DNA of 64,000 nt, taken from NCBI RefSeq assembly GCF_002844595.1, contig NZ_PJNW01000017.1, positions 1 to 64,000 on the forward strand. Direction: 5' to 3'. Shown one piece after another: positions 28,500 through 52,833 of this stretch. This DNA comes from Pleomorphomonas diazotrophica. Its GTDB lineage: Bacteria > Pseudomonadota > Alphaproteobacteria > Rhizobiales > Pleomorphomonadaceae. Positions within the stretch are counted from its first letter, which is position 1. The number at the start of each line of letters is the position of its first letter. Under the pieces are notes generated by a model. That model was not told where the DNA came from, did not search any database, and saw only the letters and a list, made by a program, of their open reading frames with translations. The position numbers and the translations under genes were made by a program.

Positions 28500-28558
28500 G
28501 GCATAGTCGGTCAGCCCGCCAATGGGGTCACCCGTCGCCGATCACGGAGGACCTGACC

Positions 28559-30292
28559 ATGGAGTTGCCGACAAAGCCAAGGACTGCACAGTTTGTCGCA
28601 GTCTTGACCGGAACATTGTTGTTCGCCGTTCCAGCTTGGTCGGGAGCGGCGATCGGATCGCCGACCTATCATCAAGGCATTGTCCAGTACCTCGAACACG
28701 GCAAGGTCTCCGGCCGCGAGGTCAACCACGGCAAGACCCTGCTTTGGCTGGGCATCCCCTATGCCGAGCCACCGGTCGGCGCTCTCAGGTGGAAGGCGCC
28801 GCGACCGCTGCCAGCTTCGGTGGGTGACATTGACGCCACCAGGAGCGGTCCTCTCTGTCCGCAGCTCCACGCTGGCAGGCTCGTTGGCAGTGAAGACTGC
28901 CTGACGCTCGACATCTACAGGCCCAACAGCCCGGAGACCGACCTGCCGGTGCTGGTCTACATCCACGGTGGCAACAACCAGAACGGCACCAGCCAGGAGT
29001 TCGATGCGAGGCATCTCGCGGTGACCGTCAACGCCGTGGTCGTCTCCGTCAACTACCGGCTGGGGCTGCTCGGCTTCAACAGCCTGCCGACGCTCAGGAA
29101 CGGCAGTGCCGAGGAGAACTCCGGCAACTTCTCGCTTCTCGACATGTCGCAGGCCCTGAGGTGGGTCAAAGGCAACATCGCCGCCTTCGGCGGTGATGGC
29201 GGCAACATCACCGTGGCGGGCTTTTCGGCCGGTGGGCGGGACGTCATGGCGATGCTGATCTCGCCGGTCTTCAACGGGCGGTTCCAGAAGGCGATCTCCA
29301 TCAGCGGCGGCATGACTGTCGCCAACGCCGAAGCGAGCGCCAGGCTGACGGCTACGGCGCTGGCGCCGCTCGTGGTGGCCGACAATGTCAAGGCGGATCA
29401 AGAGGCGGCCTATCAATGGCTGCTCGCCGCCTCGCCCGAGGTCGACGACTATCTGCGCGTGTTGGCGGCCGACCGTCTCGCCGGGCTCATGACCAATGCC
29501 GGCATCCGCATGGCGGTGTTTCCTCACCTCTTCAATGACGGGGTGGTGCTACCGAAGGACGGCTTTGCCAAGGCAACCTACAACTCCGTGCCGCTGATCA
29601 TGCTGACCAGCTCGAAGGAGTTCTCGCTCTTTGCCCGCAGCGATCCGGAGTTCGCGGCTATCAGTGACGAGGAGCTGATGGCCGACGCCGAGGGGCTGCG
29701 GGCTTACGCCTTCGCGAACGACTACGGCAGCAAGCTCTACGAGCTGTTCAACGCCCAGGATTCGGCGACGGCCATGTTCGCCGGTTACAGGGCACCCATC
29801 TACACCCTGCGGATCGCCTGGGGCGGCAATCCCAACATCGTCGGCGAACGCATGGCCACGGTCTACGGGTCGTTCCACGGCGTGTGGATTCCCTTCGTCA
29901 CATCGGCCACAAGCGGCTTCTCGGCGGGCTTCCCGGCCGTCTTCGACAATCCGGGCGCCCGCGACCTCTCGGGCAAGCTCGGCCATTATCTCGGCAACTT
30001 CCTGAGAACCGGCGACCCCAACGGGGAAGGGCTCGTCTCCTGGGAGCCGTGGCGGTCAGAGACCGGCGGCCCGACGCAGCTTGTGGTCGATGCCGACGCC
30101 GACAAGGCCATCATCAGTATGACCGAGGAACGGATGCGCTACGATGACGTCCTGGCGGAGATGGAGGCCGACCGGTCGATCCCGGAGGCAGACAAGCGGT
30201 ACCTGATTGAAAAGGTGCTGAACGGCCGCTGGTTCAGCCGTCGCCTCGACCAGCACTTCGGCAACGCTTCGCCTTGGATCATCGTCGAGTGA
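28559..30292 (+). CDS. type-B carboxylesterase, exported
   Basis: 577-residue alpha/beta-hydrolase of the cholinesterase/carboxylesterase B family. The N-terminal hydrophobic stretch FVAVLTGTLLFAVPAWSGAA looks like a Sec signal peptide. Family motifs are LWLGIPYAEPPVGALRW, SEDCLTLDIY, the oxyanion-hole YIHGGNN and the nucleophile loop VAGFSAGGRD. The histidine is probably in YGSFHGVWIPF. The usual GESAGG loop has Phe in place of Glu, which is atypical. CGGAGG precedes the ATG at 28559. It probably cleaves an ester outside the cytoplasm; a terminator follows. Confidence 0.85.
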   Translation: MELPTKPRTAQFVAVLTGTLLFAVPAWSGAAIGSPTYHQGIVQYLEHGKVSGREVNHGKTLLWLGIPYAEPPVGALRWKAPRPLPASVGDIDATRSGPLCPQLHAGRLVGSEDCLTLDIYRPNSPETDLPVLVYIHGGNNQNGTSQEFDARHLAVTVNAVVVSVNYRLGLLGFNSLPTLRNGSAEENSGNFSLLDMSQALRWVKGNIAAFGGDGGNITVAGFSAGGRDVMAMLISPVFNGRFQKAISISGGMTVANAEASARLTATALAPLVVADNVKADQEAAYQWLLAASPEVDDYLRVLAADRLAGLMTNAGIRMAVFPHLFNDGVVLPKDGFAKATYNSVPLIMLTSSKEFSLFARSDPEFAAISDEELMADAEGLRAYAFANDYGSKLYELFNAQDSATAMFAGYRAPIYTLRIAWGGNPNIVGERMATVYGSFHGVWIPFVTSATSGFSAGFPAVFDNPGARDLSGKLGHYLGNFLRTGDPNGEGLVSWEPWRSETGGPTQLVVDADADKAIISMTEERMRYDDVLAEMEADRSIPEADKRYLIEKVLNGRWFSRRLDQHFGNASPWIIVE

Positions 30293-30387: not shown

Positions 30388-30585
30388 TCAGGCGGCTTCC
30401 GGCATGCAGGAGCCCGACGGGCAGACTTCGGCGCACTGCTGGGTGTCGAAGTGGCCTTCGCACTCGGTGCACTTCTTGGCGTTGATCGAGTAGACCTTGC
30501 CCTTGTGGCTGATCGCCTTGTTGGGGCACTCGTCTTCGCAGGCGCCGCAGGAGGTGCAGGTGGAGGTATCAATCATATAGGCCAT
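30388..30585 (-). CDS. 2[4Fe-4S] ferredoxin
   Basis: 65-residue bacterial-type ferredoxin. The first cluster motif is [12 protein letters not shown]. The second is [18 protein letters not shown], with the longer insertion typical of the Allochromatium/FdxN/YfhL type and a short C-terminal tail. The ATG at 30585 has AGAGGAG eight bases upstream. It lies 162 bases downstream of cooH on the same strand and ahead of a terminator, so it may be the electron donor to the membrane hydrogenase. It is much smaller than the multi-cluster CooF of R. rubrum; a nitrogenase-type role is an alternative. Confidence 0.92.
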
Positions 30586-30747
30586 GGGTGTCACTCCTCT
30601 TGGTTGTCCAGCGGGGTCGCGGTTGTCCGTTTATGTGCGGCCCCGATTTCGGTCGCCGGGAGCAAGTGGATTGCACCCTTGCCCTCGGCTCCAGTTTTCC
30701 TGTTTTCGTGTCGTCCGAAAAGTCTGCAGCTTCCCGGATGACAGTTT

Positions 30748-31848
30748 TCAGCGTTCCGTGCAGGAAAGGCAGGGATCGATGCTGTTGACGATCATGGCGA
30801 TGTCCGCGACCTTGGCGTCCTGCAGCATGAAGCGCAGGCTGTCCCAGTTCATGAAGGTCGGCACGCGCCACTTGACGCGCTCGGGCTGCGGCGTGTCGTT
30901 GGTGCGGAGGTAGTAGATCACCTCGCCGCGCGGCGCTTCGCTGCGGGTCACCGCCTGTCCGGGCGGGATGTCCGGGCGGTCGTTGATGTTGACCGGGCCG
31001 CCGGGCAGGTCGCGCAGGCAGACGCGCAACAGGTCGATCGAGGTCAGGATCTCCTCGAGGCGGACCATGGCGCGCGACCAGACGTCGCCGTCGGTCAGCG
31101 AGTGCACGACGAGCGGCAGACGATCATAGGCGGCATAGGGCGCTTCGCGGCGCACGTCGTAGTCGACGCCGGAGGCGCGGGCCACCGGGCCGACGACGCC
31201 GCAGGTGATGGCGTCGGCATGGGTGAGCACGCCCACGCCCTTGGTGCGGCGCAGGATCGAGCCGTTGGTCTTGAAGGTCTTGATGATGTCCTTCGTCTCG
31301 GTCTCGATCTTGTCGAGCGCGCCCTTGATGTAGGCGATCGATTTGTCATCGAGATCGTAGCGGACGCCACCGATGCACATGGCGCCGATGTCCTGGCGGT
31401 TGCCGAAGATCGATTCCAGCATGTCCTGGCCGATCTCGCGGACCTGCATCATGTGCATGAAGTAGGTCTCGTAGCCGACGAGGTGCACCAGAAGCGCCAC
31501 GTTGAAGAGGTGCGAGGTGACGCGCTTCATCTCGTCCGCGACGGTGCGCAGGTAGATGCCGCGCTCGGGCACCTCGATGCCGGCGATCTTCTCGGCCGCC
31601 ATGGCGAAGGTCTGCGGATGGCTGTTGGAGCAGAGCGAGCAGATGCGCTCGGTCAGCACCACGTTCTGGTACATCGAGCGCTTGGTGGTGAGGTACTCGA
31701 TGCCGCGGTGGGCGTGGCCGGCGTTGATGTCGATGTGGCTGACGGTTTCGCCCTGCACATCGATCTTGAAGTACATCGGCTCCTCGAGGGCCACGTGCAG
31801 CGGGCCGACGGGGATGCTGAAGGTCTCGGGTACGTTGTGCGTGCTCAT
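30748..31848 (-). CDS. cooH: energy-converting [NiFe] hydrogenase large (catalytic) subunit, CooH type
   Basis: 366-residue catalytic subunit, homologous to NuoD, carrying the NiFe site facing the cytoplasm. The nickel-binding cysteines are in ERICSLC (Cys70, Cys73) and in the last residues DPCLSCTER (Cys360, Cys363). The protein ends three residues after the last cysteine, so there is no C-terminal extension for a maturation peptidase, as known for R. rubrum CooH. The intact L1 and L2 motifs separate it from respiratory NuoD. Its ATG overlaps the cooU stop. Sixth gene of the cooMKLXUH-order operon. Confidence 0.93.
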   Translation of the reverse strand: MSTHNVPETFSIPVGPLHVALEEPMYFKIDVQGETVSHIDINAGHAHRGIEYLTTKRSMYQNVVLTERICSLCSNSHPQTFAMAAEKIAGIEVPERGIYLRTVADEMKRVTSHLFNVALLVHLVGYETYFMHMMQVREIGQDMLESIFGNRQDIGAMCIGGVRYDLDDKSIAYIKGALDKIETETKDIIKTFKTNGSILRRTKGVGVLTHADAITCGVVGPVARASGVDYDVRREAPYAAYDRLPLVVHSLTDGDVWSRAMVRLEEILTSIDLLRVCLRDLPGGPVNINDRPDIPPGQAVTRSEAPRGEVIYYLRTNDTPQPERVKWRVPTFMNWDSLRFMLQDAKVADIAMIVNSIDPCLSCTER

Positions 31849-32471
31849 GCTGCACCCTTCTTTCCGGCGGCGGTGAGGCGTTCCCACAGGCCCTTGGTGC
31901 TGGCGGCGTTGACCAGCGTGGAGAACGGGATCAGCCGCTCGAGAACGGCGCCGTCGACGGAAGCGTCGAGGAACAGGCGGCGCGGATCGGGATGGTCGGT
32001 GACCTTGACGGCGTAGAGCTCCATCATCTCGCGCTCGTGCCAGTCGGCATTGCGGAACAACGGCGTCAGCGAAGGGATGCTGCCACCCTGCGGTACGTAG
32101 GCGATAATGGTCAGCGCGTCGCCGGCGATGTCGAAGTGATAGTCGATCTCGTAGGAGGTGCCGTCGAGCGGCGTGCCGCCGAACGTCTTCGGCGTTTCCT
32201 TGGGCTCGGCTTCGGCCTTCGCTTCGCCGTCCTCGTTCTCCTCGTCCTCGTCTTCCTCCTCCTCGGGGACGGAGGGCTGGGCGCAGGTGATCATCGACAG
32301 GCGCGCGCCCATGTCCTTGAGCAGGGCGGCGACGGGCGACAGATCGGCAGCGCTGGCGAGGCCCAACCAGGCGACGGTGACGCCATACTGGTCGGTTTCG
32401 GCCGAGAACTCGACGCCGGCCGGCGCCGCGGCGGTGAGGCGGGCTTCCAGGTCTTGCGGTAGGCGGCTCAT
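31845..32471 (-). CDS. cooU: hydrogenase subunit, NuoC-like (CooU type)
   Basis: 208-residue NuoC-family subunit that bridges the catalytic and iron-sulfur subunits. The family core is at the C-terminal side (YVPQGGSIPSLTPLFRNADW, HEREMMELYAVKVTDHPDPR). An unusual Glu/Asp/Lys-rich insertion of about 25 residues, beginning VPEEEEDEDEENEDGEAK near residue 70, separates the N-terminal part from the core. ATGA overlaps link it to cooX upstream and cooH downstream. The call rests on the NuoC core and gene order. Confidence 0.88.
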   Translation of the reverse strand: MSRLPQDLEARLTAAAPAGVEFSAETDQYGVTVAWLGLASAADLSPVAALLKDMGARLSMITCAQPSVPEEEEDEDEENEDGEAKAEAEPKETPKTFGGTPLDGTSYEIDYHFDIAGDALTIIAYVPQGGSIPSLTPLFRNADWHEREMMELYAVKVTDHPDPRRLFLDASVDGAVLERLIPFSTLVNAASTKGLWERLTAAGKKGAA

Positions 32472-32971
32472 GCTGGGACCTTCCGGTTCTTGAGATACTT
32501 GGCGCGGCACTTCGGGCAGCGGGCGCGCACTTCGGCATATTCCTCGGTGCTGAGCGGCGGCTTGGCGTTCTTGACCATCGGCGCCGTGTTGAGCGCGGTG
32601 GCGCCGCATTCGACGCAGGTCTGATTGGGGATCAGGCCGTGCTCGACCATGTCGAACTTGTCGGCGTTGACGTGGGAGAGGTCCCAGTCGTTGGTCTGGT
32701 GGATGGCGTCCGTCGGGCAATAGAACTCGCAATTGCCGCAGAACACACAGGTGTTGTGCCAGCAATCGAAGGTCATGCCGTCGGGCGTCTTGGCGAAGCG
32801 GATGGCGTTGGCCGGGCAGACGCGCTCGCAGATGCGGCAACCCTCACAGGTCGCCGCGTTGAACTCGATGCGGCCACGCAGGCGCTCCGGCGTGAAGGCC
32901 GGCCCGAGGGGGAAGGCCTCGGTCTGAGGGCCCTGCTTCAGGTTGCGGGCGAAAATCGTCAGGAAGTTCAT
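32468..32971 (-). CDS. cooX: hydrogenase iron-sulfur subunit, NuoI-like (CooX type)
   Basis: 167-residue polyferredoxin subunit with two [4Fe-4S] motifs, CEGCRICERVCP and CVFCGNCEFYCP, which pass electrons to the small subunit. A C-terminal extension holds two more CxxC pairs (CVECG, CPKC) that could form a zinc ribbon or rubredoxin-like site. No transmembrane segment. Overlaps cooU by four bases and starts 14 bases after cooL. Fourth gene of the hydrogenase operon. Confidence 0.9.
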   Translation of the reverse strand: MNFLTIFARNLKQGPQTEAFPLGPAFTPERLRGRIEFNAATCEGCRICERVCPANAIRFAKTPDGMTFDCWHNTCVFCGNCEFYCPTDAIHQTNDWDLSHVNADKFDMVEHGLIPNQTCVECGATALNTAPMVKNAKPPLSTEEYAEVRARCPKCRAKYLKNRKVPA

Positions 32972-32985
32972 CTTGGGACCTTTCC

Positions 32986-33423
32986 TCAGAGACGCTCGCG
33001 CCAGATGGCGATGGCCTTGGCGACGCCGGCGATGATCGCCTGCGGCCGGGGCGGGCAGCCGGGCACGTTGACGTCGATCGGAATGTACTGGTCGATCGGC
33101 GCCAGCACGGCATAGCTCTCGCGGAAGATGCCGCCGGAGATCGGGCAGACGCCGACCGCCACCGTCACCTTCGGATCGGGGATCTCCTCGTACATGCGCA
33201 GCACGGCGTCCTTGACGCGGACGGTGAGCGGACCGGAGATCAGCACGATGTCGGCGTGCTTGGGGCTGCCGCAGTACTGGCAGCCGAGGCGCTCGATGTC
33301 ATAGCGGGGGATCAGCGCGGTGGTCGCCATCTCCACGTCGCAGCCGTTGCAGGAGCCGGCATTGATCCGGTAGATCCAGGGCGAGCGCGTGGCGATGTTC
33401 TTGAAATTGGGTATCAGGCCCAT
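32986..33423 (-). CDS. cooL: hydrogenase small subunit, NuoB-like (CooL type)
   Basis: 145-residue [4Fe-4S] small subunit next to the NiFe site, homologous to NuoB. Cluster-binding cysteines are visible in NAGSCNGCDVEM, VGVCPISGG and VPGCPPRPQAI, matching the N2-cluster pattern of energy-converting hydrogenases. The start at 33423 (MGLIPNFKN) has AGGAGGG at good spacing; a longer frame upstream lacks one. Ten bases follow cooK. Confidence 0.93.
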   Translation of the reverse strand: MGLIPNFKNIATRSPWIYRINAGSCNGCDVEMATTALIPRYDIERLGCQYCGSPKHADIVLISGPLTVRVKDAVLRMYEEIPDPKVTVAVGVCPISGGIFRESYAVLAPIDQYIPIDVNVPGCPPRPQAIIAGVAKAIAIWRERL

Positions 33424-33433
33424 CTTGCCCTCC

Positions 33434-34393
33434 TCAGACCACGACGACGACTGCAAGGCTCGCCACGGCGAGCAGCAGGGGCCACTTCAGGAAAAACACA
33501 AAGGCTTGGTCGATGCGCATGCGGCCCATGGACAGACGGACCGCGGTGATGCCGACCAGCATCATCACTGCCATCTTGACGAGCCACACCAGGAAGCCGC
33601 CGACGATGCCCGCCGGGGCCGCCGGGAAGAAGAGCGCGATGCCGAGACCCAGCACGACCACCTTCTTCAGCGCCGACATGATCTTGAACAGCGCCAGCAC
33701 CGGGCCGGAGTATTCGAGCAGCGGTCCCTCAAGCACTTCGGTCTCGGCCTCGGGGATGTCGAAGGGCACGATGCCGACGTTGGCCGGATAGAAGAAGCAG
33801 AAGGCGGCGACTGCTGGCCACATCACCGGGTCGAACAGGAAGGAACCGTGGGCCTGCTGATAGGCGACGATGTCGTTCAGCGAGAAGGTGGCCCAGCCGC
33901 CCATTCCCATGCCGGTGCGGATGGCGACGGCGGCGGCGATCAGCACCAGCGGACCTTCGTAGGCGATCATCAGGGCCATCTCGCGGGAGAAGCCGATGGC
34001 GCCGTAGGGCGAACCGGAAGCCGAGCCGGCGATCATCAGTACGATGCCGGGGATCATCAGCAGGTAGAGCAGCACCAGGAGATTGCCGATGGCGGCATCC
34101 GGCGCATAGACCGAGGTGATCGGCACCAGGGCGGCGGCGACCAGCATGGCGACGACGCCGACGAGCGGGGTGTAGAGGAACACCGTCTCATTGGCGGCGG
34201 CCGGCACCATGGTGCGCTTGAAGCCGAGCTTGATGATGTCGAAGAACGGCTGCAACAGCGGCGGTCCGACGCGGCTCTGCAGGCGGGCGGCGACGCGGCG
34301 GTCGACACCCTTCATGGCGAGGCCGAAGGCGAGGGCGAAGACTCCACCGGGGAAGAGGAGCACCGCCAGCAAGATAGCGATCTGGTTGGACAT
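33434..34393 (-). CDS. cooK: hydrogenase membrane subunit, NuoH-like (CooK type)
   Basis: 319-residue integral membrane subunit homologous to NuoH/HyfC, about eight hydrophobic segments, connecting the hydrophilic arm to the ion-translocating antiporter-like arm. Family motifs include LQSRVGPPLLQPFFDIIKLG near residue 45 and PFDIPEAETEVLEGPLLEYS, a conserved acidic loop. Ends with a hydrophobic run rich in valine. Lies between cooM (20-base gap) and cooL (10-base gap). Confidence 0.93.
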   Translation of the reverse strand: MSNQIAILLAVLLFPGGVFALAFGLAMKGVDRRVAARLQSRVGPPLLQPFFDIIKLGFKRTMVPAAANETVFLYTPLVGVVAMLVAAALVPITSVYAPDAAIGNLLVLLYLLMIPGIVLMIAGSASGSPYGAIGFSREMALMIAYEGPLVLIAAAVAIRTGMGMGGWATFSLNDIVAYQQAHGSFLFDPVMWPAVAAFCFFYPANVGIVPFDIPEAETEVLEGPLLEYSGPVLALFKIMSALKKVVVLGLGIALFFPAAPAGIVGGFLVWLVKMAVMMLVGITAVRLSMGRMRIDQAFVFFLKWPLLLAVASLAVVVVV

Positions 34394-34413
34394 TTTGGGT
34401 CTCTCCTCTCCCG

Positions 34414-37400
34414 TCAGTGCTGTTCTTTGGCCTTGGCGGGCTTGCTCGCCAGGAGGCCGCGGATGGCAGCGGTCGGGGACTCGAACAGGTTGACGGCACC
34501 GACACGGCCGCCGGCTTCCGGCAGGAAGTCATTGGGCGTGGCGCCGGCGAAGTGCAGGCCGCTCTTCTGGACGCCGCGGTGGGCAAGACGCATCCAGGGG
34601 ATGAACAGCGCGGCGACGATCAGAACCAGCAGGCTGAGGGCGAGCGGGCTCCAGCCGCCGGCGCCCGGCAGCGGGCCGAAGATCGAGGCGTCGATCGGCG
34701 TGAGGCCGAGCTCCACCTGCATCTTGGCGATCGGCACCAGGGCGAGGCCTGGGAAGAAGCCGAGCAGAACACTCGCACCCACCAGCACGCCCATCGGCAG
34801 CAGCATGGACATCGGCGCTTCCTCGGCTTCCAGGGCCTTCGCCGTCGGCGCGCCCATGAAGGCGGCGTGGGCGAACTTCAGCACGGCAGCGAGGGTGAAC
34901 AGCGACGACACCATGGCACCGGTGGCGAGCGCCCAGTGGCCACTCTCGAAGGCGGCGGAGAAGATCATCCACTTCGAGGAGAAGCCGTTGAGCGGTGGAA
35001 CGCCGGCCAGTGACAGGCCGGCGAACAGGAAGAAGCCGAAGGTGATCGGCATCTTCCGGCCGAGGCCGCCCAGTTCGTCGAGCTGGCTGGCATGGCTCTT
35101 CACCATGACGGCGCCCGCCACGAGGAACAGCGTGTCCTTCAGGAACATGTGGTTGACGAAGTGGAACAGGCCGCCGGCGACGCCGAGCGAGGTGCCGAGG
35201 CAGAGCGCCATCAGCACGTAGCCGAGCTGGCTGACGGTGGAGTAGATCAGCAAGAGCTTGATGCCGTTCTGAACCACGGCCATGGCGCCGGCGTAGACGA
35301 CGGTGATGCCGGCGATGATGGCGATGATGTCGATCAGCGCCGGAACACCGCCGATCTCGCCGCCGAGGCGCAGGAACACCGCGCTGCCGCCGAACAGGCT
35401 GAACAGCTTCAGAACGCCCCACGGACCCGACTTCAGCAGAACCGCCGAGATGTAGCCGGAGACGGGGGTCGGCGCGAGGGCCGGGTGCATCTGCACGTCG
35501 ATGCGGACGGGCAGCATGGCAGCCTTCATGACCAGGCCGATGAACACCGGGACGATGCCGATGGCCAGCGTCATGAGCGGCATGTCGAGCGCCTTCTGGC
35601 CGATCTCGACGAGATCGAAGGTGCCGGCATGGGCGGCCAGCGCCGCGACGCCCAGGAACATGAAGGAGGCGCCGACGGTGTTGAAGAAGAAGTACTTGAA
35701 GCCTTCCCTCCGCGCCTCGTCGTTCTCCTCATGGATGATGGCCGCCCAGAGCGCCCAGCTCGACATCAGCTCCCAGAAACCGAAGAAGGTGAAGATGTCC
35801 TTGGCCGCCGTCATGCCCAGGAGGCCGGCGATCATGATGCCGAAGGCGGCAAAGAAACGCGGTTGGGCATGGTTGTGGGCGAGATAGGCAGTGGCGTGCA
35901 GCATGTTGAGCGCGCCGACGCCGGCGATCAGCACTGCGAACCAGAAGGACAGCGTGTCATAGGCCGGGGCGGTGAAGATCACCGCGAGGAAGGCCACAAC
36001 CAGCACCGCCACGGCGAGCCAGCCGGCCTGCTGGACCGACTTGCGGCCGACCAGCCAGACAGCCACGGCGCCCAGGAAGGCGATGGTGGCCGGCAGCGTC
36101 CAGGTCATGACGAGGCTCGGCAGCGCCGCCGCGGCGAGACCGCTGCGGGCAGCCACCTCGGCGCCGACGGCACCGACGAGGTTGAGCTGGAAGGACGGAA
36201 CGAAGCCGCCGAAGACGATCGCGGCAGCGAGAACCCCGACAGCGACCAGCATGGAGAGCGGCGCTTCCTTGACGCCGGCTTCGCCCTTCCAGGGACGGAA
36301 GAACAGCATGCCGACGACGCGGAGATAGTAGACCACGGCGATGATGCCGCCGACCAGAAGGCCGGTGGCCACTTCATAGTGGCCGGCCTCGGCCGCTGCG
36401 TAGACCATCAGGAACTTCGAGACGAAGCCCGAGAAGGGCGGCAGGCCCATGATCGACACGGTGGCGAGCGCGTAGCAGCCGGCGGTGAAGGGCATGACGC
36501 GACCGACGCCGGCGAGGTCGGCGATGTTGCGCCGGCCCGTCTGCATGATGAAGGCGCCGGCTGCGAAGAACAGCAGGGTCTTCATCACGGCGTGGTTGGT
36601 GACGTGCAGGAGGCTTGCGTCGGTGGCGAGCGCCGTGCCGATGCCGAGCACCGCGACGATCTCGCCGACCTGGGCGAGCGTCGAGAAGGCCAGCATCCGC
36701 TTGATCTCGGTCTCCAAGAGGGCGCGGATCTCGCCGTAGAGGAGCGTGATCAGGCCGAGGCCGATCAGCACCACCTCGAGGCTGAGGCCCCAGCCGGTGA
36801 AGGTGGAGAGCGCCGGGACGCCGATGACGATGAACAGCACCTTGACGAGGCCGAACACGCCGGCCTTGGTCAGGATACCCGACAGCGGACCGGAGATGGA
36901 CGACGGCGCGGCCGGGTGGGCGATCGGCAGCCAGCTATGAGCCGGCCACACGCCCGCCTTCACCGCGAAGCCGGCGAAGAAGCAAAGCGCGATGACGAGG
37001 CCGGCGACCGGGGAGATCGTGCCGACCTTTTCGGCAAGGGCGGCGAACTCGAAGGAGCCGATCTCGGCGTGCGTCAGCAGGATGCCGAAGTGCATCAGAT
37101 AGGCGCCGGAGGCGCACATCATGAAATAGATGAGGCCGGCGCGCAGCGACTTCTGGTTCTGCTCGTGAATGACCAGGAAGTAGGAGGTCCAGGTCATCAG
37201 CTCCCAGTAGACGTAGAAGTTGCCCATCTCGTGCGCGGTGGTGAGGCCGAGCAGCGAGCCGATCATCAGGAAGGCGAAGAAGTAGTAGCGGTTGGTCCAC
37301 TCGGCGCGGGCCATGTAGCCGACCGAGTAGACGATCATCACGGCGGTGATGCCGGCGAACACCAGAGCGAAGACGCGGGAGGCCGGATCGAGGCTGGTGT

Positions 37401-38208
37401 CGAACACCACGAGGGCCAGCGTCGCGACGGCGAGGATCACGGCGCCGATGTCGCGGGCGCGGGTCGAGACGTGGCCGAGGCCGTAGATCACGAAGCCGCC
37501 GATATAGGGAACGAGGACGAGCAGCGCCCAGGGCGACTCGAACTCGGGAACGCCGCCAACGGCGCCGGCGAGGGCCTCGGCCGCATGCTGGAAGGGCAGC
37601 GGGAAGACCGAGATCAGCGCGGTGACGGCGGCGAGCGCCCAGGCGATCGGAAGGGCGAGGGCCGGGGGAGCGGCGAGCTCGACGCGGCGGGCCGGATGCT
37701 CCAGGCAGACGCGCTGGATCACCACCAGATAATAATAGGCGGCGACGATCGAGGCGGCGGTGCCGATCAGAGCGATGGCCCAGTGGCCCTGCTCGATGGC
37801 GGCGTAGAGCACCAGGAACTTGGAGAAGGATCCCTTGAAGGGCGACAGGCCCATCACGGAGAACATGCCGAAGCCGAACAGCGTCGCGGCGACCGGCATG
37901 CGGTGTCCGGAGCCGGCGAGGTCGTCGAGGCGCGACGAGCCGGTGCGGCGGATGATGTACCAGCCGGCGGCGATCACCAGACCACGCATGATGACCTGAT
38001 AGCCGAAATGCATGTAGGCGCCGGTCAGGCCGGCTTCACCGCCGAGGCCGAGACCGATGAGGATGTAGCCGATCTCGGCGATCGTCGACCATATGACGAC
38101 ACGCGTGAGGCTCGGCAGGCTCATGAGGGCGGCGACTTCGCCGAAGAACAGGAAGATCGCGCCCATCCAGGCCAGCGCCATCGGGTCGATCTGAGTTAGG
38201 GATAGCAT
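34414..38208 (-). CDS. cooM: large antiporter-like hydrogenase membrane subunit (CooM type)
   Basis: 1264-residue membrane protein made of NuoL/M/N antiporter modules. Residues about 1-215 resemble only the C-terminal half of such a module (STIAEIGYILIGLGLG, GLSPFKGSFSKFLVLYAA). About 230-650 form a complete module (NFYVYWELMTW, VKAGVWPAHSWLPIAH, ETEIKRMLAFSTLAQVGEI). About 680-1130 form another (FFGFWELMSSW, LVMKAAMLPVRI, QNGIKLLLIYSTVSQLG). The TM5 glutamates and central lysines used for proton or sodium transfer are present in both complete modules. A single protein above 1200 residues heading this gene order is characteristic of R. rubrum CooM. ATG 38208 has GGAAGGA upstream; an in-frame ATG at 38232 has none. 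Confidence 0.92.
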   Translation of the reverse strand: MLSLTQIDPMALAWMGAIFLFFGEVAALMSLPSLTRVVIWSTIAEIGYILIGLGLGGEAGLTGAYMHFGYQVIMRGLVIAAGWYIIRRTGSSRLDDLAGSGHRMPVAATLFGFGMFSVMGLSPFKGSFSKFLVLYAAIEQGHWAIALIGTAASIVAAYYYLVVIQRVCLEHPARRVELAAPPALALPIAWALAAVTALISVFPLPFQHAAEALAGAVGGVPEFESPWALLVLVPYIGGFVIYGLGHVSTRARDIGAVILAVATLALVVFDTSLDPASRVFALVFAGITAVMIVYSVGYMARAEWTNRYYFFAFLMIGSLLGLTTAHEMGNFYVYWELMTWTSYFLVIHEQNQKSLRAGLIYFMMCASGAYLMHFGILLTHAEIGSFEFAALAEKVGTISPVAGLVIALCFFAGFAVKAGVWPAHSWLPIAHPAAPSSISGPLSGILTKAGVFGLVKVLFIVIGVPALSTFTGWGLSLEVVLIGLGLITLLYGEIRALLETEIKRMLAFSTLAQVGEIVAVLGIGTALATDASLLHVTNHAVMKTLLFFAAGAFIMQTGRRNIADLAGVGRVMPFTAGCYALATVSIMGLPPFSGFVSKFLMVYAAAEAGHYEVATGLLVGGIIAVVYYLRVVGMLFFRPWKGEAGVKEAPLSMLVAVGVLAAAIVFGGFVPSFQLNLVGAVGAEVAARSGLAAAALPSLVMTWTLPATIAFLGAVAVWLVGRKSVQQAGWLAVAVLVVAFLAVIFTAPAYDTLSFWFAVLIAGVGALNMLHATAYLAHNHAQPRFFAAFGIMIAGLLGMTAAKDIFTFFGFWELMSSWALWAAIIHEENDEARREGFKYFFFNTVGASFMFLGVAALAAHAGTFDLVEIGQKALDMPLMTLAIGIVPVFIGLVMKAAMLPVRIDVQMHPALAPTPVSGYISAVLLKSGPWGVLKLFSLFGGSAVFLRLGGEIGGVPALIDIIAIIAGITVVYAGAMAVVQNGIKLLLIYSTVSQLGYVLMALCLGTSLGVAGGLFHFVNHMFLKDTLFLVAGAVMVKSHASQLDELGGLGRKMPITFGFFLFAGLSLAGVPPLNGFSSKWMIFSAAFESGHWALATGAMVSSLFTLAAVLKFAHAAFMGAPTAKALEAEEAPMSMLLPMGVLVGASVLLGFFPGLALVPIAKMQVELGLTPIDASIFGPLPGAGGWSPLALSLLVLIVAALFIPWMRLAHRGVQKSGLHFAGATPNDFLPEAGGRVGAVNLFESPTAAIRGLLASKPAKAKEQH

Positions 38209-38253
38209 GAGAGGAGATCCTTCCGCAGACATGCATCTTGGCTGTCATGAATG

Positions 38254-38259
38254 ACGTTA
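38254..38259 (-). promoter_or_regulatory. candidate -10 element of the cooM promoter
   Basis: On the minus strand TAACGT occupies 38259-38254, placing the likely transcription start near 38247, which is 41-42 bases from the centre of the CooA-type dyad. That is the geometry of a class II Crp-family activated promoter, where a -35 box is not needed. Inference from spacing only. Confidence 0.45.
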
Positions 38260-38280
38260 ATCGGAGCATCCACTAGGGTA

Positions 38281-38296
38281 TGTCGGCTAGCCGACA
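38281..38296. promoter_or_regulatory. CooA-type operator upstream of cooM
   Basis: TGTCGGCTAGCCGACA is a perfect 16-bp palindrome of the form TGTCG-N6-CGACA. The known R. rubrum CooA sites follow the pattern TGTCA-N6-CGACA, so the match is close and the spacing identical. It lies 73 bases upstream of the cooM ATG. A CooA-like regulator is encoded 2 kb away at 40397-41053. Confidence 0.75.
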
Positions 38297-38573
38297 TATA
38301 CGCATTCGCACGACGCCAATGCTTTGGAGGCGGAAGTAAAACTGATATCTATATTCAAGTTATTATGTTTGCGATAATCGTAGTAATTTCAAAGCGATAC
38401 CCAAAGACGGGCGGCTATCGGCGGACGGAAACACGGAGTTTTGGGGCGTGTTGACGGGCAGATTTCGGCCATTTTCTAAGTAGTATGTCCGATGCAGCTT
38501 AGTGCATTCCCGCCATGCAGAATCCAAGGGATTCCCCTTTGCTGCGAATGGCTTGCAAGAATCGAAGAGAAAA

Positions 38574-38589
38574 TCCGTCATTTCACGGA
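38574..38589. promoter_or_regulatory. dyad TCCGT-N6-ACGGA upstream of hypA
   Basis: TCCGTCATTTCACGGA has 5-base arms and a 6-base spacer, the spacing used by Crp/Fnr-family proteins, centred about 70 bases before the hypA ATG. The arm sequence does not match the CooA or Fnr consensus, so the regulator is unknown and the element may be chance. Confidence 0.3.
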
Positions 38590-38651
38590 CAAGTATTCCC
38601 TTGGCCGCGGCGATTGGAGTAGATGAAAAGACAGAGAAGAAAGGACAGCCG

Positions 38652-38999
38652 ATGCACGAGACGGCGGTGGTCGAGGGGCTGATGCGCATCCTGACCGAGC
38701 ATGCCAAACAGAATGGCGTTGCCCGGGTCGTCGCCGTGCGGCTGAAGATCGGCCGCCTGCGCGGCATCGACAGCCGGCAGATCCGGCTGGCCTTCGAGAT
38801 CTTCGCCGAGGGAACGCTGGCCGAAGGCGCACGCCTCGACATCGACGAGGTCGGCGTCACCGCGAAATGCCGGACCTGCGGCGCCACCTTCGAGGTGGAG
38901 AAATATCAGTTCGTCTGCTCGGGCTGCGGTGGCTCGGACGCCGAGGTGCTCACCGGACGTGAGCTCTACATCGAGAGCTTCGAGGCGGCGAAGAGTTGA
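38652..38999 (+). CDS. hypA: hydrogenase nickel-insertion protein
   Basis: 115-residue nickel metallochaperone that delivers Ni to the NiFe hydrogenase large subunit together with HypB. The N-terminal Met-His-Glu (MHETAVVEGLMRIL) supplies the nickel ligands, and the zinc ribbon is CRTCG then CSGCG. AAAGGA precedes the ATG at 38652. Divergent from the cooM operon, whose CooH subunit is its expected client. The remaining hypCDEF genes are not in the window. Confidence 0.95.
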   Translation: MHETAVVEGLMRILTEHAKQNGVARVVAVRLKIGRLRGIDSRQIRLAFEIFAEGTLAEGARLDIDEVGVTAKCRTCGATFEVEKYQFVCSGCGGSDAEVLTGRELYIESFEAAKS

Positions 39000-39015
39000 C
39001 GGGTAGGCGTTACGC

Positions 39016-39044
39016 TTGTCGGCCAGGTCGAGCGTTGTTATATT
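39016..39044 (+). promoter_or_regulatory. promoter of the hicAB pair
   Basis: TTGTCG (39016-39021) and TATATT (39039-39044) with a 17-base spacer. The expected transcription start falls at or next to the hicA ATG (39051), and no ribosome binding site is visible, so hicA may be translated from a leaderless mRNA. Confidence 0.6.
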
Positions 39045-39050
39045 GCTAGC

Positions 39051-39305
39051 ATGAATAGCAAGCACAGGAAGGTCCTAGCGGCGGTTTTTGCCGATCCTGT
39101 CTCGGGCTCGATCGCTTGGGCCGATATCGAAGGTATTCTTGTTGCTGTGGGCTGCCGCGTGATCGAAGGCGCCGGCTCGCGAGTGAGGTTCGAGAAGGAC
39201 GGTCTTATCGCCAGCTTTCATCGCCCCCATCCGGAGAAGGAAGCCAAGAGGTATCAAGTGCGGGATGCCCGCGAGTTCCTGTCGAAGCTGGGAGTCGAGC
39301 CATGA
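39051..39305 (+). CDS. hicA: HicA-type toxin of a type II toxin-antitoxin system
   Basis: 84-residue dsRBD-fold protein, the ribosome-independent mRNA-interferase partner of HicB. The core GAGSRVRFEKDGLIASFHRP belongs to the HicA subgroup in which the usual GSHH catalytic-histidine segment reads GSRV, with conserved histidines shifted to SFHRPHP. It is therefore a variant whose nuclease chemistry should not be assumed. Followed by hicB with an ATGA overlap. Promoter at 39016-39044. Confidence 0.85.
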   Translation: MNSKHRKVLAAVFADPVSGSIAWADIEGILVAVGCRVIEGAGSRVRFEKDGLIASFHRPHPEKEAKRYQVRDAREFLSKLGVEP

Positions 39306-39643
39306 GCGGCATGACCTACAAGGGGTACCACGCCCGTGTCGAATTCGACGCCGACGACGAGATCTTCGTCGGCCGTGTTGCGGGGCTCAACGATGTCGTC
39401 GGGTTCCATGCCGAAACGGTCGAAGATCTCAAGGCAGCGTTCCGCGAGGCGGTCGACGACTATCTCGAAACCTGCCGGACGATCGGCAAGGCGCCGCAAA
39501 AGCCTTATTCCGGCCGGGTGATGTTCCGCATCTCTCCGGAAGTTCATGCCAAGGCGGCCACTGCCGCCGAGCTCTCGGGCAAGAGCCTCAACGAGTGGGC
39601 GGAAGCGGCTCTTGCAGAGGCGGCGGCAAAACAGGTTGCATAA
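39302..39643 (+). CDS. hicB: HicB-type antitoxin
   Basis: 113-residue antitoxin. The N-terminal half is the partial RNase H-fold HicB domain (MTYKGYHARVEFDADDEIFV, DYLETCRTIGKAP). The C-terminal half is a ribbon-helix-helix DNA-binding domain (GRVMFRISPEVHAKAATAAE, GKSLNEWAEAAL) expected to repress the hicAB promoter. The ATG at 39302 overlaps the hicA stop. The pair sits between hypA and hypB and separates two hydrogenase maturation genes. Confidence 0.9.
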   Translation: MSGMTYKGYHARVEFDADDEIFVGRVAGLNDVVGFHAETVEDLKAAFREAVDDYLETCRTIGKAPQKPYSGRVMFRISPEVHAKAATAAELSGKSLNEWAEAALAEAAAKQVA

Positions 39644-39659
39644 ACGAGACGGTGCCTGA

Positions 39660-40373
39660 TCAGCTCCGGCCCACCGCCTGCCGTCGTTCGCCGAGGCGAT
39701 CGACGATCCACTGCGTCCAGGCGTCGAGGCCGGCGCCCTTCTTGGCCGATACTTCGAGGACCGGGCCGGGGCCATGGACGCGGCCGATGGCGGCACGAGC
39801 CCGTTCGGTCGAGAATTCCTCGATGGCCGGCAGCAGGTCGGTCTTGGTGAGAAGCACCAGGTCGGCCTTGCGGAAGATCACCGGATACTTGTCGGGCTTG
39901 TCGTCGCCCTCGGTCACCGAGAGAAGCACCACGTCGTGATGCTGGCCGACGTCGAAGTCGGCGGGACAGACGAGGTTGCCGACGTTCTCGACGAACAGCA
40001 CGTCGATGTCGTCGAGGTCGAGGACGTGCAGCGCGTCGTGGATCATCACCGCATCGAGGTGGCAGGTGACGCCGGTGGTGATCTGCACCGCCGGCACGCC
40101 ATGGCGGCGGATGCGGTCGGCGTCGTTCTCGGTTTCGAGGTCACCCTCGACCACGGCAATCCGGATGCCCTTCGGCAGCGCCGCGATGGTCGCTTCCAGA
40201 AGTTGCGTCTTGCCGGAGCCGGGCGACGACATCAGGTTGATCGACAGCACGCCATGGGCGTCGAGGTGCTCACGGATGTGAGCGGCGATCCGGTCGTTTT
40301 CCGACAGGAGATTCTCGACGACGGGAATGGTGGTGGTGGCGGCCTTGGTGCCGCAGCCGCAGTCGCTGCACAT
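39660..40373 (-). CDS. hypB: hydrogenase nickel incorporation GTPase
   Basis: 237-residue SIMIBI-class GTPase that drives nickel insertion with HypA. The N-terminal high-affinity metal site MCSDCGCG is present. The histidine-rich stretch of some HypB proteins is absent, so it probably lacks nickel storage. The P-loop is SSPGSGKTQLLE, with VEGDLETENDADRI, the metal-binding VTCHLDAVMIHDAL and the nucleotide-specificity LLTKTDLLPAI. CAGGAG lies six bases before ATG 40373. It lies 23 bases downstream of the CooA-like gene on the same strand, so the two are likely one operon. Confidence 0.95.
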   Translation of the reverse strand: MCSDCGCGTKAATTTIPVVENLLSENDRIAAHIREHLDAHGVLSINLMSSPGSGKTQLLEATIAALPKGIRIAVVEGDLETENDADRIRRHGVPAVQITTGVTCHLDAVMIHDALHVLDLDDIDVLFVENVGNLVCPADFDVGQHHDVVLLSVTEGDDKPDKYPVIFRKADLVLLTKTDLLPAIEEFSTERARAAIGRVHGPGPVLEVSAKKGAGLDAWTQWIVDRLGERRQAVGRS

Positions 40374-40396
40374 GGGAAACTCCTGAAATGGGGGCG

Positions 40397-41053
40397 TCAG
40401 CGGACGTCGGCGAGCTCGCGGCGCAGGCGGCCGAGATCGGAGATCACCATCGAACCGCCGCCGAAGCGGTAGAGGATGCCCGAGCGGACCAGCTCGGCGA
40501 TGACGGTTGAGACCGACTGCCGCGTGGCGCCGATCTGCATGGCAAAGTCCTCGGCGTTGGGCAGATGGTCGATGACGATGCCTTCCTCGGCCGGACGGCC
40601 GACGCGGTCGGCGGTGTCGCAGAGCACGCGGATGAGCCGGTGCTTGACGCCGTGGAAGGCGATGTCCTCGATCATGCGGACCGATTTCTGCGCCAGACGG
40701 TCGAGGGCCGGCAGGACGGCAAGCGCCAGCTCCGGCTCGGCGAGCACGAGCTGGCGGAAAGCGGAGGGCGAGGCGAGCAGGACGTCGGCAGCGGTGCGCA
40801 CCTCCAGCATGGCGCCGCCATGCAGGTAGACAGCATCGCCCGCCTCGAGCATGTAGAGCGTCAGCTCCTTGCCCTCGAAGGACGTGAAGCAGCGCAACCG
40901 GCCGGAGCGGACGATCAGAAGGTCGCCGTCGGCGGCCTCGTCGCCGCCATAGACGATCTGCCCGGCACGCATCGAACGCTGGTTGAACAGGCGGCCGTGG
41001 CCGTCCTTCAGAAGGCGTTCGACGAGTGCGCTGAGCGGGTTGTCGGTCAACAT
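40397..41053 (-). CDS. Crp/Fnr-family regulator resembling CO sensor CooA
   Basis: 218-residue Crp/Fnr-type activator with an N-terminal cyclic-nucleotide-binding-like domain, a long dimer helix (SVRMIEDIAFHGVKHRLIRV, very like CooA) and a helix-turn-helix (IGATRQSVSTVIAELVRSG). In the loop where R. rubrum CooA has haem ligands Cys75 and His77 (GDMFCMHSG), this protein reads GDAVYLHGG: His78 is kept, Tyr76 replaces the cysteine. The redox-state ligand is therefore changed, but the ferrous-haem histidine is present. The Arg-Gln recognition-helix pair fits the TGTCG-N6-CGACA site ahead of cooM. Comparisons are from memory. Confidence 0.82.
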   Translation of the reverse strand: MLTDNPLSALVERLLKDGHGRLFNQRSMRAGQIVYGGDEAADGDLLIVRSGRLRCFTSFEGKELTLYMLEAGDAVYLHGGAMLEVRTAADVLLASPSAFRQLVLAEPELALAVLPALDRLAQKSVRMIEDIAFHGVKHRLIRVLCDTADRVGRPAEEGIVIDHLPNAEDFAMQIGATRQSVSTVIAELVRSGILYRFGGGSMVISDLGRLRRELADVR

Positions 41054-41253: not shown

Positions 41254-42330
41254 TTATACTTTGGTCGCGGGCGGCCAGATGGCGCCACGCAAGGTGAACA
41301 GAATGTAACCGAGAAAGGCGACGGCCCAGCTCCAGCGGGCCAGCGGGATCAGGGTATCGTAGAGCTCGAAATCCAGGGCGGCGCCGACGCGGGCGACAGC
41401 AGCACCGGCGATGGCCACGTAGACGACGTCGGCGAGCAGCGACGGCATCAGCGACCGCTTGTCCTTCTTGCGGACGATGGAGGTGGCGATGGCGATGGCC
41501 AGTGTCGCAAGACCCCCCACCGCAAAGGCGTGGATGACGGCGAAGGGCGAGATGTCGGCGATGCCGAGATCCATCAGCGCCAGCAGGAGAAAGGCCAGCC
41601 GCTTCCAGACGAGGCCGACCGCTAGGATGACGCAGCCGGCATAGGGCTTGATGCGCCAGGGTTCTATGTGAACGAGCCAGGCGACGCCGAACAGGAAGGC
41701 GGCGAGCGCCGGCCAGCCGGCGTTCCATCCGAGCCCCCAGAGCGCCAGCGCCAGGATGGTGAAGGCACGCTGCGGCAGGGCGACGAGGGCCGGAACGGGT
41801 GTGAGCTTTGGGTAGCCGGCGCGCTCGCGCGCCACAGACAGCACGGCGATGCCGATGCGGTTCGACACTTCGATGCAGATCAGCACGATGACGGCAAGGC
41901 CGGCCATGGTGGCCTCAGGCCAGCCGCCCAAGAAGGCGGCAACGCCGATCAGCCCATGCAGGGCGGCAAGGCCGAGGATCGGCAGCGTCTCGGCCGTCTT
42001 GCCGGGCGGTGTTGTCGAGAGCAACAGCACGACGCCCGATAGCGTCGCCAGGGCGCGTAGGATTCCTCCCAGTTCCAGATCGAAGCAGCCCCAGACGAAA
42101 GCGACGGCATGGGCTGCGAGAACGGCCCAGAGCACGGGCGCCGGCGTGATCGGCTTGCCGATCCAGCGCGGCAGCGCCACGGTCAGGAAGCCGAACAACT
42201 GGATGCCGAAGAAGCCGAAGATCAGTTCATTTGGATGGGTGGCAATGTCGCCGATCTCGGGACTGATGGCCCTGAGCGCCGTCAGCGCCGCCAGCACGAA
42301 GGCGACGCGAAACGGGTCCAGCTTGGTCAT
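41254..42330 (-). CDS. nnrS: NnrS family membrane protein
   Basis: 358-residue polytopic protein (about 11-12 hydrophobic segments) of the NnrS haem- and copper-binding family, linked in other proteobacteria to nitric-oxide resistance and denitrification. Family features include DPFRVAFVLAALTAL, THPNELIFGFFGIQLFGFLT, an AHAVAFVWG segment, IHEPWR-like VHIEPWRIKPYAG, and the late FAVIHAFAVGGLATLAIA with histidines suited to haem binding. Its ATG overlaps the ubiV stop by four bases, placing it last in a ubiT-ubiU-ubiV-nnrS operon, which suggests expression under low oxygen. Confidence 0.88.
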   Translation of the reverse strand: MTKLDPFRVAFVLAALTALRAISPEIGDIATHPNELIFGFFGIQLFGFLTVALPRWIGKPITPAPVLWAVLAAHAVAFVWGCFDLELGGILRALATLSGVVLLLSTTPPGKTAETLPILGLAALHGLIGVAAFLGGWPEATMAGLAVIVLICIEVSNRIGIAVLSVARERAGYPKLTPVPALVALPQRAFTILALALWGLGWNAGWPALAAFLFGVAWLVHIEPWRIKPYAGCVILAVGLVWKRLAFLLLALMDLGIADISPFAVIHAFAVGGLATLAIAIATSIVRKKDKRSLMPSLLADVVYVAIAGAAVARVGAALDFELYDTLIPLARWSWAVAFLGYILFTLRGAIWPPATKV

Positions 42331-43226
42331 GCCATCTCCACGCGGGCGCTTCCCGGCTGTCCGCGCGTGAAGCCATCGACAAGATCGCCGGGAAGCCCCA
42401 GCAGCTTGACCGCGGCGAGCGTTTCGGCACGGCCGGCACGGCCGTCGAGCAGCGCCCGGTAGAGGCGGCTCACCGCCACCATGTCGACTGTGTGCGGGGA
42501 GAGCCGCAGACGGCGGACGCCGAGCTCGGCGAGCTCGACCGGTGTCGGGCAGAAGGCCTCGACGCCGTTCGACAGCGTCTGGATGCCGTTGATGGCGAGA
42601 AACTGCTGGCCGTCCAGCGTGTCGACGGGCAGGCCGTCCGGATCACGATCGCAGACGAACTGGCAGCCGTCCTTGTGCAGGCCGTGCAGGCGGGCGTGAT
42701 AGCAGCGGCCGGAGAGGGCCAGCGGCAAGCGACCGAAGGCGAAGAGTTCGAACTCCACCTCGGGCAGTGCGGCGGCGATGACGGAAACCGAGGCGATCGG
42801 CAGTTCCACCGGCAGGCAGATGCCGGTGGCTCCGCGTCCGGCCAGGAAGCGCGCCGCGCCCTCGTTGTAGACATTGACGAAGGGGCCGACCAGGAAGGGC
42901 TTGCCGGCCACGGTGGGCAGGGCCGTGAGGTCGTTGATCTCGGCAAGCTCGCCGGCCTTGCAGAAGTCGAGGACGGAAGCGCGTTCGCGCGGGTTGTAGG
43001 GGAGGGCAAGGGTCGACAGCACGACCTCCTTGCCTGCCGCCTGAAGACGCTCGATCAGCTCCGGCCAGATACCATCGGTGAAGGGCTGGCGCTTGCCGCA
43101 GACCACCTCGCCGAGGTGGACGCGATCGACCTCGGCCTCGTCGGCGATCCGGGCGTAGAAATCGCGAAGCCGATCGGGCGACCAGTTGAAGAGAACGGGG
43201 CCGAGGGTGAGGCCGGTCTTGGTCAT
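42327..43226 (-). CDS. ubiV: oxygen-independent ubiquinone hydroxylation protein UbiV (peptidase U32 family)
   Basis: 299-residue U32-family iron-sulfur protein which, with UbiU, hydroxylates the ubiquinone ring without O2 (prephenate is the known oxygen source in E. coli). Four candidate [4Fe-4S] cysteines are visible: EVVCGKRQPF early, then GRCYHARLHG, DGCQFVCDRD. The ATG at 43226 was chosen because GGAG lies six bases upstream; an in-frame ATG at 43232 would touch it. Thirteen bases follow ubiU and it overlaps nnrS. Confidence 0.92.
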   Translation of the reverse strand: MTKTGLTLGPVLFNWSPDRLRDFYARIADEAEVDRVHLGEVVCGKRQPFTDGIWPELIERLQAAGKEVVLSTLALPYNPRERASVLDFCKAGELAEINDLTALPTVAGKPFLVGPFVNVYNEGAARFLAGRGATGICLPVELPIASVSVIAAALPEVEFELFAFGRLPLALSGRCYHARLHGLHKDGCQFVCDRDPDGLPVDTLDGQQFLAINGIQTLSNGVEAFCPTPVELAELGVRRLRLSPHTVDMVAVSRLYRALLDGRAGRAETLAAVKLLGLPGDLVDGFTRGQPGSARVEMA

Positions 43227-43239
43227 TGTCATCTCCGGC

Positions 43240-52829: not shown

Positions 52830-52833
52830 GGTC

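Follow-up and report, generated by a model that had tools for sequence, protein, structure and literature searches.

In the window, the 64,000-nt stretch of Pleomorphomonas diazotrophica DNA analysed here, six intact genes run along the minus strand from position 38232 down to 30748 in the order cooM-cooK-cooL-cooX-cooU-cooH. This stretch belongs to contig C9 in an assembly (G000; 4.53 Mb, 40 contigs) that was scored 100% complete. Judged by sequence, the product of the coo genes is a membrane-bound [NiFe] hydrogenase of the CooH type, which we take to be group 4c. CooH hydrogenases are commonly taken as a sign of carbon monoxide (CO) oxidation, and our subject is the source of electrons for this one.

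The coo reading frames overlap or are closely spaced, and their Pfam families are those expected (Proton_antipo_M, NADHdh, Oxidored_q6, Fer4, Complex1_30kDa, and Complex1_49kDa/NiFeSe_Hases). The first gene, cooM (34414..38232), encodes a 1272-aa antiporter-type subunit with three Proton_antipo_M stretches. It is followed by genes for a NuoH-like membrane anchor (cooK, 33434..34393; PF00146, E 1.5e-60), a NuoB-like small subunit (cooL, 32986..33456; PF01058, E 7.3e-28, and NF005012 at 127.6 bits, cut-off 116), a NuoI/HycF-like Fe-S subunit (cooX, 32468..32971; profile matches), a 208-aa NuoC-like protein (cooU, 31845..32471; PF00329, E 1.5e-15), and the 366-aa [NiFe]-hydrogenase large subunit (cooH, 30748..31848; families, motifs, alignment, and tree). 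The ATG start of cooU overlaps the cooX stop, and the true start of cooL probably lies downstream of the listed TTG. Directly downstream of cooH, on the same strand (30388..30585), is a gene for a 65-aa 2[4Fe-4S] ferredoxin that is YfhL/FdxN-like (NF033683, E 2.6e-21, below cut-off). On the other side lie a divergent hypA for a nickel metallochaperone (38652..38999, plus strand; TIGR00100, 99.7 bits, cut-off 88.1), hypB for a nickel-inserting GTPase (39660..40373, minus strand; TIGR00073, 268 bits, cut-off 121), and a CooA-like Crp/Fnr regulator (40397..41053, minus strand) whose best Protein Data Bank (PDB) matches are CooA itself (1ft9, E 9.4e-26; 2fmy, E 7.9e-22). A sequence-only reading of the window had named these six genes by order and type, along with the nearby ferredoxin, hypA, hypB, and regulator, and all are borne out by profile or PDB matches. 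It had also placed an esterase and ubiTUV in the flanks; we find a COesterase match (28307-30292, plus strand) and two U32-family genes (42327-44610, minus strand) that we read as UbiU/V type. A hicA-hicB toxin-antitoxin pair (39051-39643, plus strand; PF07927, PF05534) is present between hypA and hypB.

In CooH, the two cysteine pairs are retained as RICSLC and DPCLSC. All four cysteines are fully conserved across eight aligned sequences and line up, within an alignment that extends along the whole length, with those of the membrane-bound hydrogenase (MBH) and formate hydrogenlyase (FHL) large subunits in the PDB. Among the genomes of 84,980 species scanned, 182 relatives were confirmed; the comparisons below use the best 80 of them, each with up to 10 kb of flanking sequence. 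Window CooH is 54-99% identical to these 80 (58% to Carboxydothermus) versus 29% to the Hyf-type subunit encoded in the same genome. In a tree with a Hyf-type outgroup and no Ech or Mbh sequences it nests among CooH rather than Hyf, so the placement with Hyf that was considered beforehand as an alternative was not found.

The layout is that of the CO-induced hydrogenase of Rhodospirillum rubrum, and the sequence-only reading had remarked that no CO dehydrogenase (CODH) was in view. This holds for the whole assembly, in which we found no Ni-CODH. The sole Prismane-family match begins MFCYQCEQTA..., which we take as the mark of the hybrid-cluster protein Hcp, and scores 22.7 bits with the CooS model, against a cut-off of 478. 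The suggestion that CODH is encoded elsewhere in this genome is thus rejected. Across the genus, CooS exceeds the cut-off in just 1 of 14 genomes, that of Pleomorphomonas carboxyditropha SVCO-16 (G002). Window-type CooH is present in 12 of the 13 genus relatives at 84-99% identity and without internal stops, and this conservation, repeated across the clade described below, rejects a recent CODH loss confined to one strain. A Pleomorphomonas-like isolate converts CO to H2 and CO2, according to an excerpt of PMC5603099.

Might the locus be the remnant of a CO-oxidising system, with CODH recently lost and the hydrogenase on its way out, or with CO still serving as a signal? The CooA-like regulator and a CooA-type site upstream of cooM have been kept, and P. 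carboxyditropha has a CODH-linked locus. However, the CooS of that species adjoins a second CooH that belongs to a different lineage (61% identity to the window's) and is present alongside the CODH-less one. Also at odds with a remnant are the intact copies throughout the genus and the spread of CODH-less CooH across both Alpha- and Betaproteobacteria. We consider this explanation very unlikely.

For comparison, we designated 43 of the 80 loci as CODH-less (L082-L122, L124, and L125; 42 genomes, as L095 and L096 share one). The remaining 37 include 13 without cooS in the flank. All CODH-less loci except L120, L122, and L125 form a single clade with the window (40 loci from 39 genomes, plus the window), supported by an ultrafast bootstrap of 100, an SH-like approximate likelihood ratio (SH-aLRT) of 99, and all 200 bootstrap trees; the clade label for this support test was picked after an earlier tree had been inspected. 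According to record titles, its alphaproteobacterial members include Pleomorphomonas, Oryzibacter, Siculibacillus, Rhodoplanes, Consotaella, Cohaesibacter, Breoghania, and others, and its betaproteobacterial members Uliginosibacterium, Propionivibrio, and metagenome-assembled genomes (MAGs) labelled Rhodoferax, Sideroxyarcus, and Rhodocyclaceae. The clade is placed among CODH-linked lineages, beside L126/L127 and a Telmatospirillum group.

None of the 40 clade loci has cooS in its flank, versus 24 of the 40 loci outside the clade (24/80 overall); many flanks stop at contig ends, so these and the other linkage counts are lower bounds. When whole genomes were searched, three of the 42 that carry CODH-less loci proved to have CooS. 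In P. carboxyditropha and in the genome that holds L105 and L146, it lies beside a second, CODH-type CooH; the third, L125, falls outside the clade. CooS was therefore found in 2 of 39 clade genomes; in the clade member Pleomorphomonas oryzae DSM 16300, a cultured strain, the search gave no CooS match at E<=1e-50. Outside the clade, 7 of 8 searched genomes whose loci lack cooS in the flank carry it elsewhere. As far as searched, clade genomes usually lack CODH altogether, whereas genomes outside the clade seldom do. As a separate observation, the Telmatospirillum-type CooH group (L120, L122, L125, L130) also lacks cooS in the flank, has hypA and hypB downstream of cooH in 3 of 4 loci, and has CooS elsewhere in 2 of 4 genomes (L125, L130).

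Genes outside the coo block were clustered across the 80 loci, and representatives were named by NCBIfam. The small ferredoxin family is present at 31 of the 43 CODH-less loci (a few copies lie several kb from cooH) and at none of the 37 others. A 900-aa molybdenum enzyme, whose representative is a molybdopterin-dependent aldehyde oxidoreductase (Mo-AOR; 1534 bits, cut-off 1100), is encoded within 10 kb of cooH and on the same strand at 17 of 43 CODH-less loci and 0 of 37 others. A tblastn search with the Mo-AOR of the window's own genome picked out these 17 loci again from among the 80, in each case on the cooH strand. Five further CODH-less loci, and again none of the 37 others, have a tungsten-type AOR (W-AOR) within this distance, so that one or other enzyme is linked at 22/43 versus 0/37. 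The W-AOR loci (L103, L107, L108, L111, and L112) belong to the betaproteobacterial part of the tree. At L112 the NCBIfam AOR model scores far below cut-off, and PF02730 is over cut-off in all five W-AOR-locus genomes. We read the genes adjoining four of the five as TupABC-type transport and MoaD.

Further families are likewise confined to CODH-less loci (0/37 others): an XdhC-like protein (15/43), a dicluster flavoprotein (14/43), a methyltransferase (15/43), a C-GCAxxG-C-C protein (16/43), an NTP transferase (15/43), and a radical SAM protein (11/43). The XdhC-like representative matches the XdhC-family AOR maturation factor model below cut-off, and the other NCBIfam names are NF045663 (dicluster protein), the DVU_1556, DVU_1555, and DVU_1551 families, and TrsS. 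TrsS scores below cut-off at L115, where the locus edge truncates it. Some arrangements are compact: L121 has cooH, ferredoxin, and Mo-AOR in that order, L112 has two closely similar ferredoxins (one after cooH, one before the W-AOR), and L090, from an uncultured Pleomorphomonas that is a close relative, has Mo-AOR 3.3 kb downstream of cooH. AOR and CooH distances are correlated across 17 genomes (Mantel r 0.67, 0 of 5000 permutations; L116, a short match, and four AOR loci lacking a CooH counterpart row were left out), a match that is expected of genes inherited or transferred together and is partly trivial for linked genes.

Both AOR types are also encoded in the window's genome, on contigs other than that of the coo locus. 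The Mo-AOR (C1:24144-26846; NF045668, 1542 bits, cut-off 1100) is a full-length molybdenum hydroxylase with an N-terminal 2x[2Fe-2S] region and a catalytic-Glu region. Its alignment with the Desulfovibrio gigas AOR (1sij) spans residues 6-905 of 907 and shows conserved [2Fe-2S] cysteines and a conserved GVGE region; we take E869 to be the catalytic Glu of the D. gigas type. Mo-AOR is present in all 14 genus genomes; 12 copies exceed the cut-off, and contig ends split the other two. The surrounding cluster on C1 (L178/L179) encodes an XdhC-like protein, the AOR, the dicluster protein, a methyltransferase, a C-GCAxxG-C-C protein, an NTP transferase, TrsS (over cut-off), and a regulator with a weak match to DhaR; at the very edge of the stretch there is also part of a DVU_1553-type CoA ligase. 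Flavorubredoxin-like and ArsM-like genes, both below cut-off, lie upstream of this cluster. The W-AOR cluster on C11 (L184) includes a ModE-type gene, the AOR, an Fe-S protein, and a regulator of the same DhaR-like kind as on C1. We found no function for the DVU_1551-1556/TrsS cluster in the open PubMed Central (PMC) literature searched; a table excerpted from PMC13188914 names TrsS without one.

Mo-AOR and CODH-less CooH also co-occur in genomes. We scored 397 order-level genomes, drawn evenly from a larger group, for CooH (E<=1e-60) and for Mo-AOR (E<=1e-300), strict cut-offs at which broken or weaker genes may be missed. CooH was detected in 26 genomes and Mo-AOR in 24, to which G011, with a Mo-AOR split over contig ends, was added from a separate genus-level search. 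Mo-AOR is present in all 24 genomes with CODH-less CooH (defined by an identity to the window's of 64% or more) versus 1 of 373 others (G010), giving a Fisher p of 1.3e-37 that ignores phylogeny. The safer table is by genus: CODH-less CooH and Mo-AOR are found in an identical set of 6 out of 141 genera (6/6 versus 0/135; Fisher p 1e-10). The CooH genomes without Mo-AOR, which were set apart, have either CODH-linked CooH only (G310) or distant copies only (G045; 35-44% identity). CooH-like copies in this identity range occur at L057, L058, L080, and L081 (G045, G276, G330). Among the 42 genomes of the CODH-less loci, Mo-AOR (E<=1e-150) was counted in 36, with 33 over cut-off. In the clade it is present in 34 of 39 genomes, and three of the remaining five have W-AOR. 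W-AOR was searched for in 48 genomes (38 of the 42 CODH-less genomes, the window's own, and 9 CODH-linked genomes) and found in 20, namely the window's own, 19/38, and 0/9.

The sequence-only reading had proposed, besides CODH elsewhere, that another donor such as formate or pyruvate acts via the small ferredoxin. The general idea of a different donor is strengthened by the conserved ferredoxin and by the linkage and co-occurrence of AOR; pyruvate as that donor is not. It is possible, if unlikely, that fermentative ferredoxin in general, reduced with pyruvate or other 2-oxoacids, feeds the hydrogenase and that AOR is one of several inputs. Desulfovibrio vulgaris CooH is thought to run from lactate without CO, and the coo genes in the window adjoin only the ferredoxin and no AOR. 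Yet full-length single-chain NifJ-type pyruvate:ferredoxin oxidoreductase (PFOR; TIGR02176, E<=1e-300) was found in none of the 14 genus genomes and in only 8 of the 397 order-level genomes (2/24 with CODH-less CooH versus 6/373 others; Fisher p 0.08). This rarity argues against pyruvate via a NifJ-type enzyme and suggests that the link to AOR is not merely a generic sign of anaerobic metabolism. No 2-oxoacid oxidoreductase was recognised among the families recurring beside the loci, although the two-subunit type was not searched for. Formate, the other donor suggested, would make the enzyme a second formate hydrogenlyase. The genome, however, has a separate Hyf-type group 4 hydrogenase, and no formate dehydrogenase was recognised among the families recurring beside CODH-less loci, only some of which were named from a profile library, and no search aimed at it was made; we regard a formate-fed enzyme as hardly probable.

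We consider it likely that the electron-input module of a CooH-type hydrogenase has been exchanged, from CODH and CooF to aldehyde oxidation by AOR. We infer the electron path, its direction, the substrate, ion pumping, and regulation from gene content and homology. Mo-AOR of the D. gigas type, W-AOR, or both would oxidise an aldehyde to the acid. The electrons may pass via the 776-aa dicluster flavoprotein encoded beside Mo-AOR to the 65-aa ferredoxin encoded after cooH, and then via CooX and CooL to the NiFe site of CooH, where protons would be reduced to H2 while CooM and CooK pump ions. Such an 'aldehyde hydrogenlyase' would conserve energy from the net reaction RCHO + H2O -> RCOOH + H2. 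Since the aldehyde/acid and CO/CO2 couples have similar reducing power, the exchange of inputs makes chemical sense.

The same components could run in reverse, with H2 and the ion gradient reducing ferredoxin for acid reduction by AOR, for nitrogenase, or for CO2 fixation. Group 4 hydrogenases are reversible, and the window ferredoxin resembles what we take to be nitrogenase-type ferredoxins. According to PMC12727526, the Clostridium autoethanogenum W-AOR reduces acetate to acetaldehyde with CO-driven ferredoxin, so that either direction is conceivable for the Coo/AOR pair. On the other hand, acid reduction is unfavourable under standard conditions according to the same paper (PMC12727526), and the genome encodes a separate large subunit that looks to be of the uptake type (G000:C11:990828). 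Reverse operation is, in our view, rather improbable.

Potentially bearing on regulation, a perfect palindrome, TGTCGGCTAGCCGACA (38281..38296), lies about 50 bp before the start of cooM and resembles the CooA operator, given the consensus that we assume for it. It is the only match in the window, where 3.67 are expected by chance at one mismatch or fewer. Single matches are thus to be expected, and it is the repeated position that counts: TGTC-N8-GACA recurs before cooM, in a comparable position, within the genus and at a number of loci of both the CODH-less and the CODH-linked kind, while many others lack it. No operator common to cooM and the Mo-AOR cluster was found, with one imperfect TGTC-N8-GACA in each of L178 and L179. 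Of the 40 clade loci, some with incomplete flanks, only 11 have the CooA-like gene itself upstream of hypB and cooM. We take the CooA haem ligands to be His77 and Cys75/Pro2. The window regulator keeps His at the His77 position and has Tyr at the Cys75 position. In the 22 aligned regulators of CODH-linked loci, the first position is always His and the second is Cys, Ser, or Thr; of the 11 clade regulators, ten have His at the first and that of Siculibacillus has Asn. Two more Crp-like proteins in clade flanks (L102 and a second L090 copy) lack this His and are perhaps other paralogues. Overall, we lean toward a history in which a clade of Alpha- and Betaproteobacterial CooH swapped the CO module for Mo- or W-AOR and a dedicated ferredoxin once, from CODH-linked ancestors, with the CooA-type sensor being lost or stripped of CO-sensing residues.

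Several observations weigh against the exchange to aldehyde oxidation. The CooA-like regulator and CooA-type site retained in the window would fit control by CO. The AOR genes of the window's genome are on other contigs, so linkage is seen in relatives only, and the loci compared are the best 80 of the 182 confirmed relatives. Neither AOR was found in two clade genomes, the MAGs with L109 and L119 (2.5 and 2.7 Mb). G010 (89% complete) has Mo-AOR without window-type CooH. Mo-AOR is also not exclusive to the clade: of 34 genomes whose CooH belongs to other lineages, nine have it, among them seven that are Desulfovibrio-like, one Telmatospirillum (L130), and one with a below-cut-off clostridial match (L140).

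In all, four hydrogenases were recognised in the genome: CooH, a Hyf-type enzyme, the uptake-type-looking enzyme, and an [FeFe] hydrogenase. The Hyf-type group 4 set is on contig C11 (L059, L185), with hypC- and hypD-looking genes upstream, and the uptake-type-looking large subunit is about 18 kb from it. The [FeFe] hydrogenase, group A, is in the window (50979-54948, minus strand), about 13-17 kb from cooM, and is over cut-off for TIGR02512. Its best match is the NADH-dependent A6 model, just below cut-off, and it adjoins a gene for a GltD-like NAD(P)-binding protein. [FeFe] hydrogenase maturases have already been reported in Pleomorphomonas (PMC4967309, in excerpt).

The locus shares with CooMKLXUH of R. 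rubrum and Carboxydothermus the six-gene order, the large CooM, the NiFe cysteines, nearby hyp genes, and a CooA-type regulator and site. It differs from these in that CooS was not found in the assembly, a 65-aa ferredoxin follows cooH, CooH belongs to a separate clade (100/99), and AOR co-occurs. In Pyrococcus, a W-AOR reduces the ferredoxin that feeds MBH. The predicted chain is similar in that AOR-reduced ferredoxin would feed a group 4 hydrogenase, but the Pyrococcus enzyme is an archaeal MBH, whereas the one described here is a proteobacterial CooH type found mainly with Mo-AOR. The epsilonproteobacterium Nautilia profundicola has a Coo operon that lies outside the best 80 of 182 loci compared here. 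An excerpt of PMC2628731 gives its order as cooMKLXUHF3 and calls it a CO-induced hydrogenase; Coo operons are likewise described in PMC7952632. In vitro, D. gigas Mo-AOR, flavodoxin, cytochrome c3, and [NiFe] hydrogenase pass electrons from aldehyde to H2 (PMC10223205, in part). That chain has a Mo-AOR of the same family and the same overall reaction, aldehyde and water to acid and H2, as predicted here. It consists, however, of soluble proteins reconstituted in vitro, whereas we predict a membrane ion-pumping hydrogenase with its own ferredoxin and a genetic association with AOR. CooH-type hydrogenases and Mo-AOR are thus each of already known kinds; their coupling was not found in the literature searched (open PMC, outside which most subscription papers lie).

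The aldehyde reading is open to direct test in cultured strains, for example Pleomorphomonas oryzae. If it is true, it may provide a setting for the poorly understood DVU_1551-1556/TrsS cluster around Mo-AOR, and it would caution against reading carboxydotrophy from cooH. The electron-input side of a complex-I-like pump would prove to be modular and exchangeable. The whole CooH clade would then signal energy-conserving, H2-forming oxidation of aldehydes under anaerobic conditions, an added metabolic mode for facultatively anaerobic bacteria.

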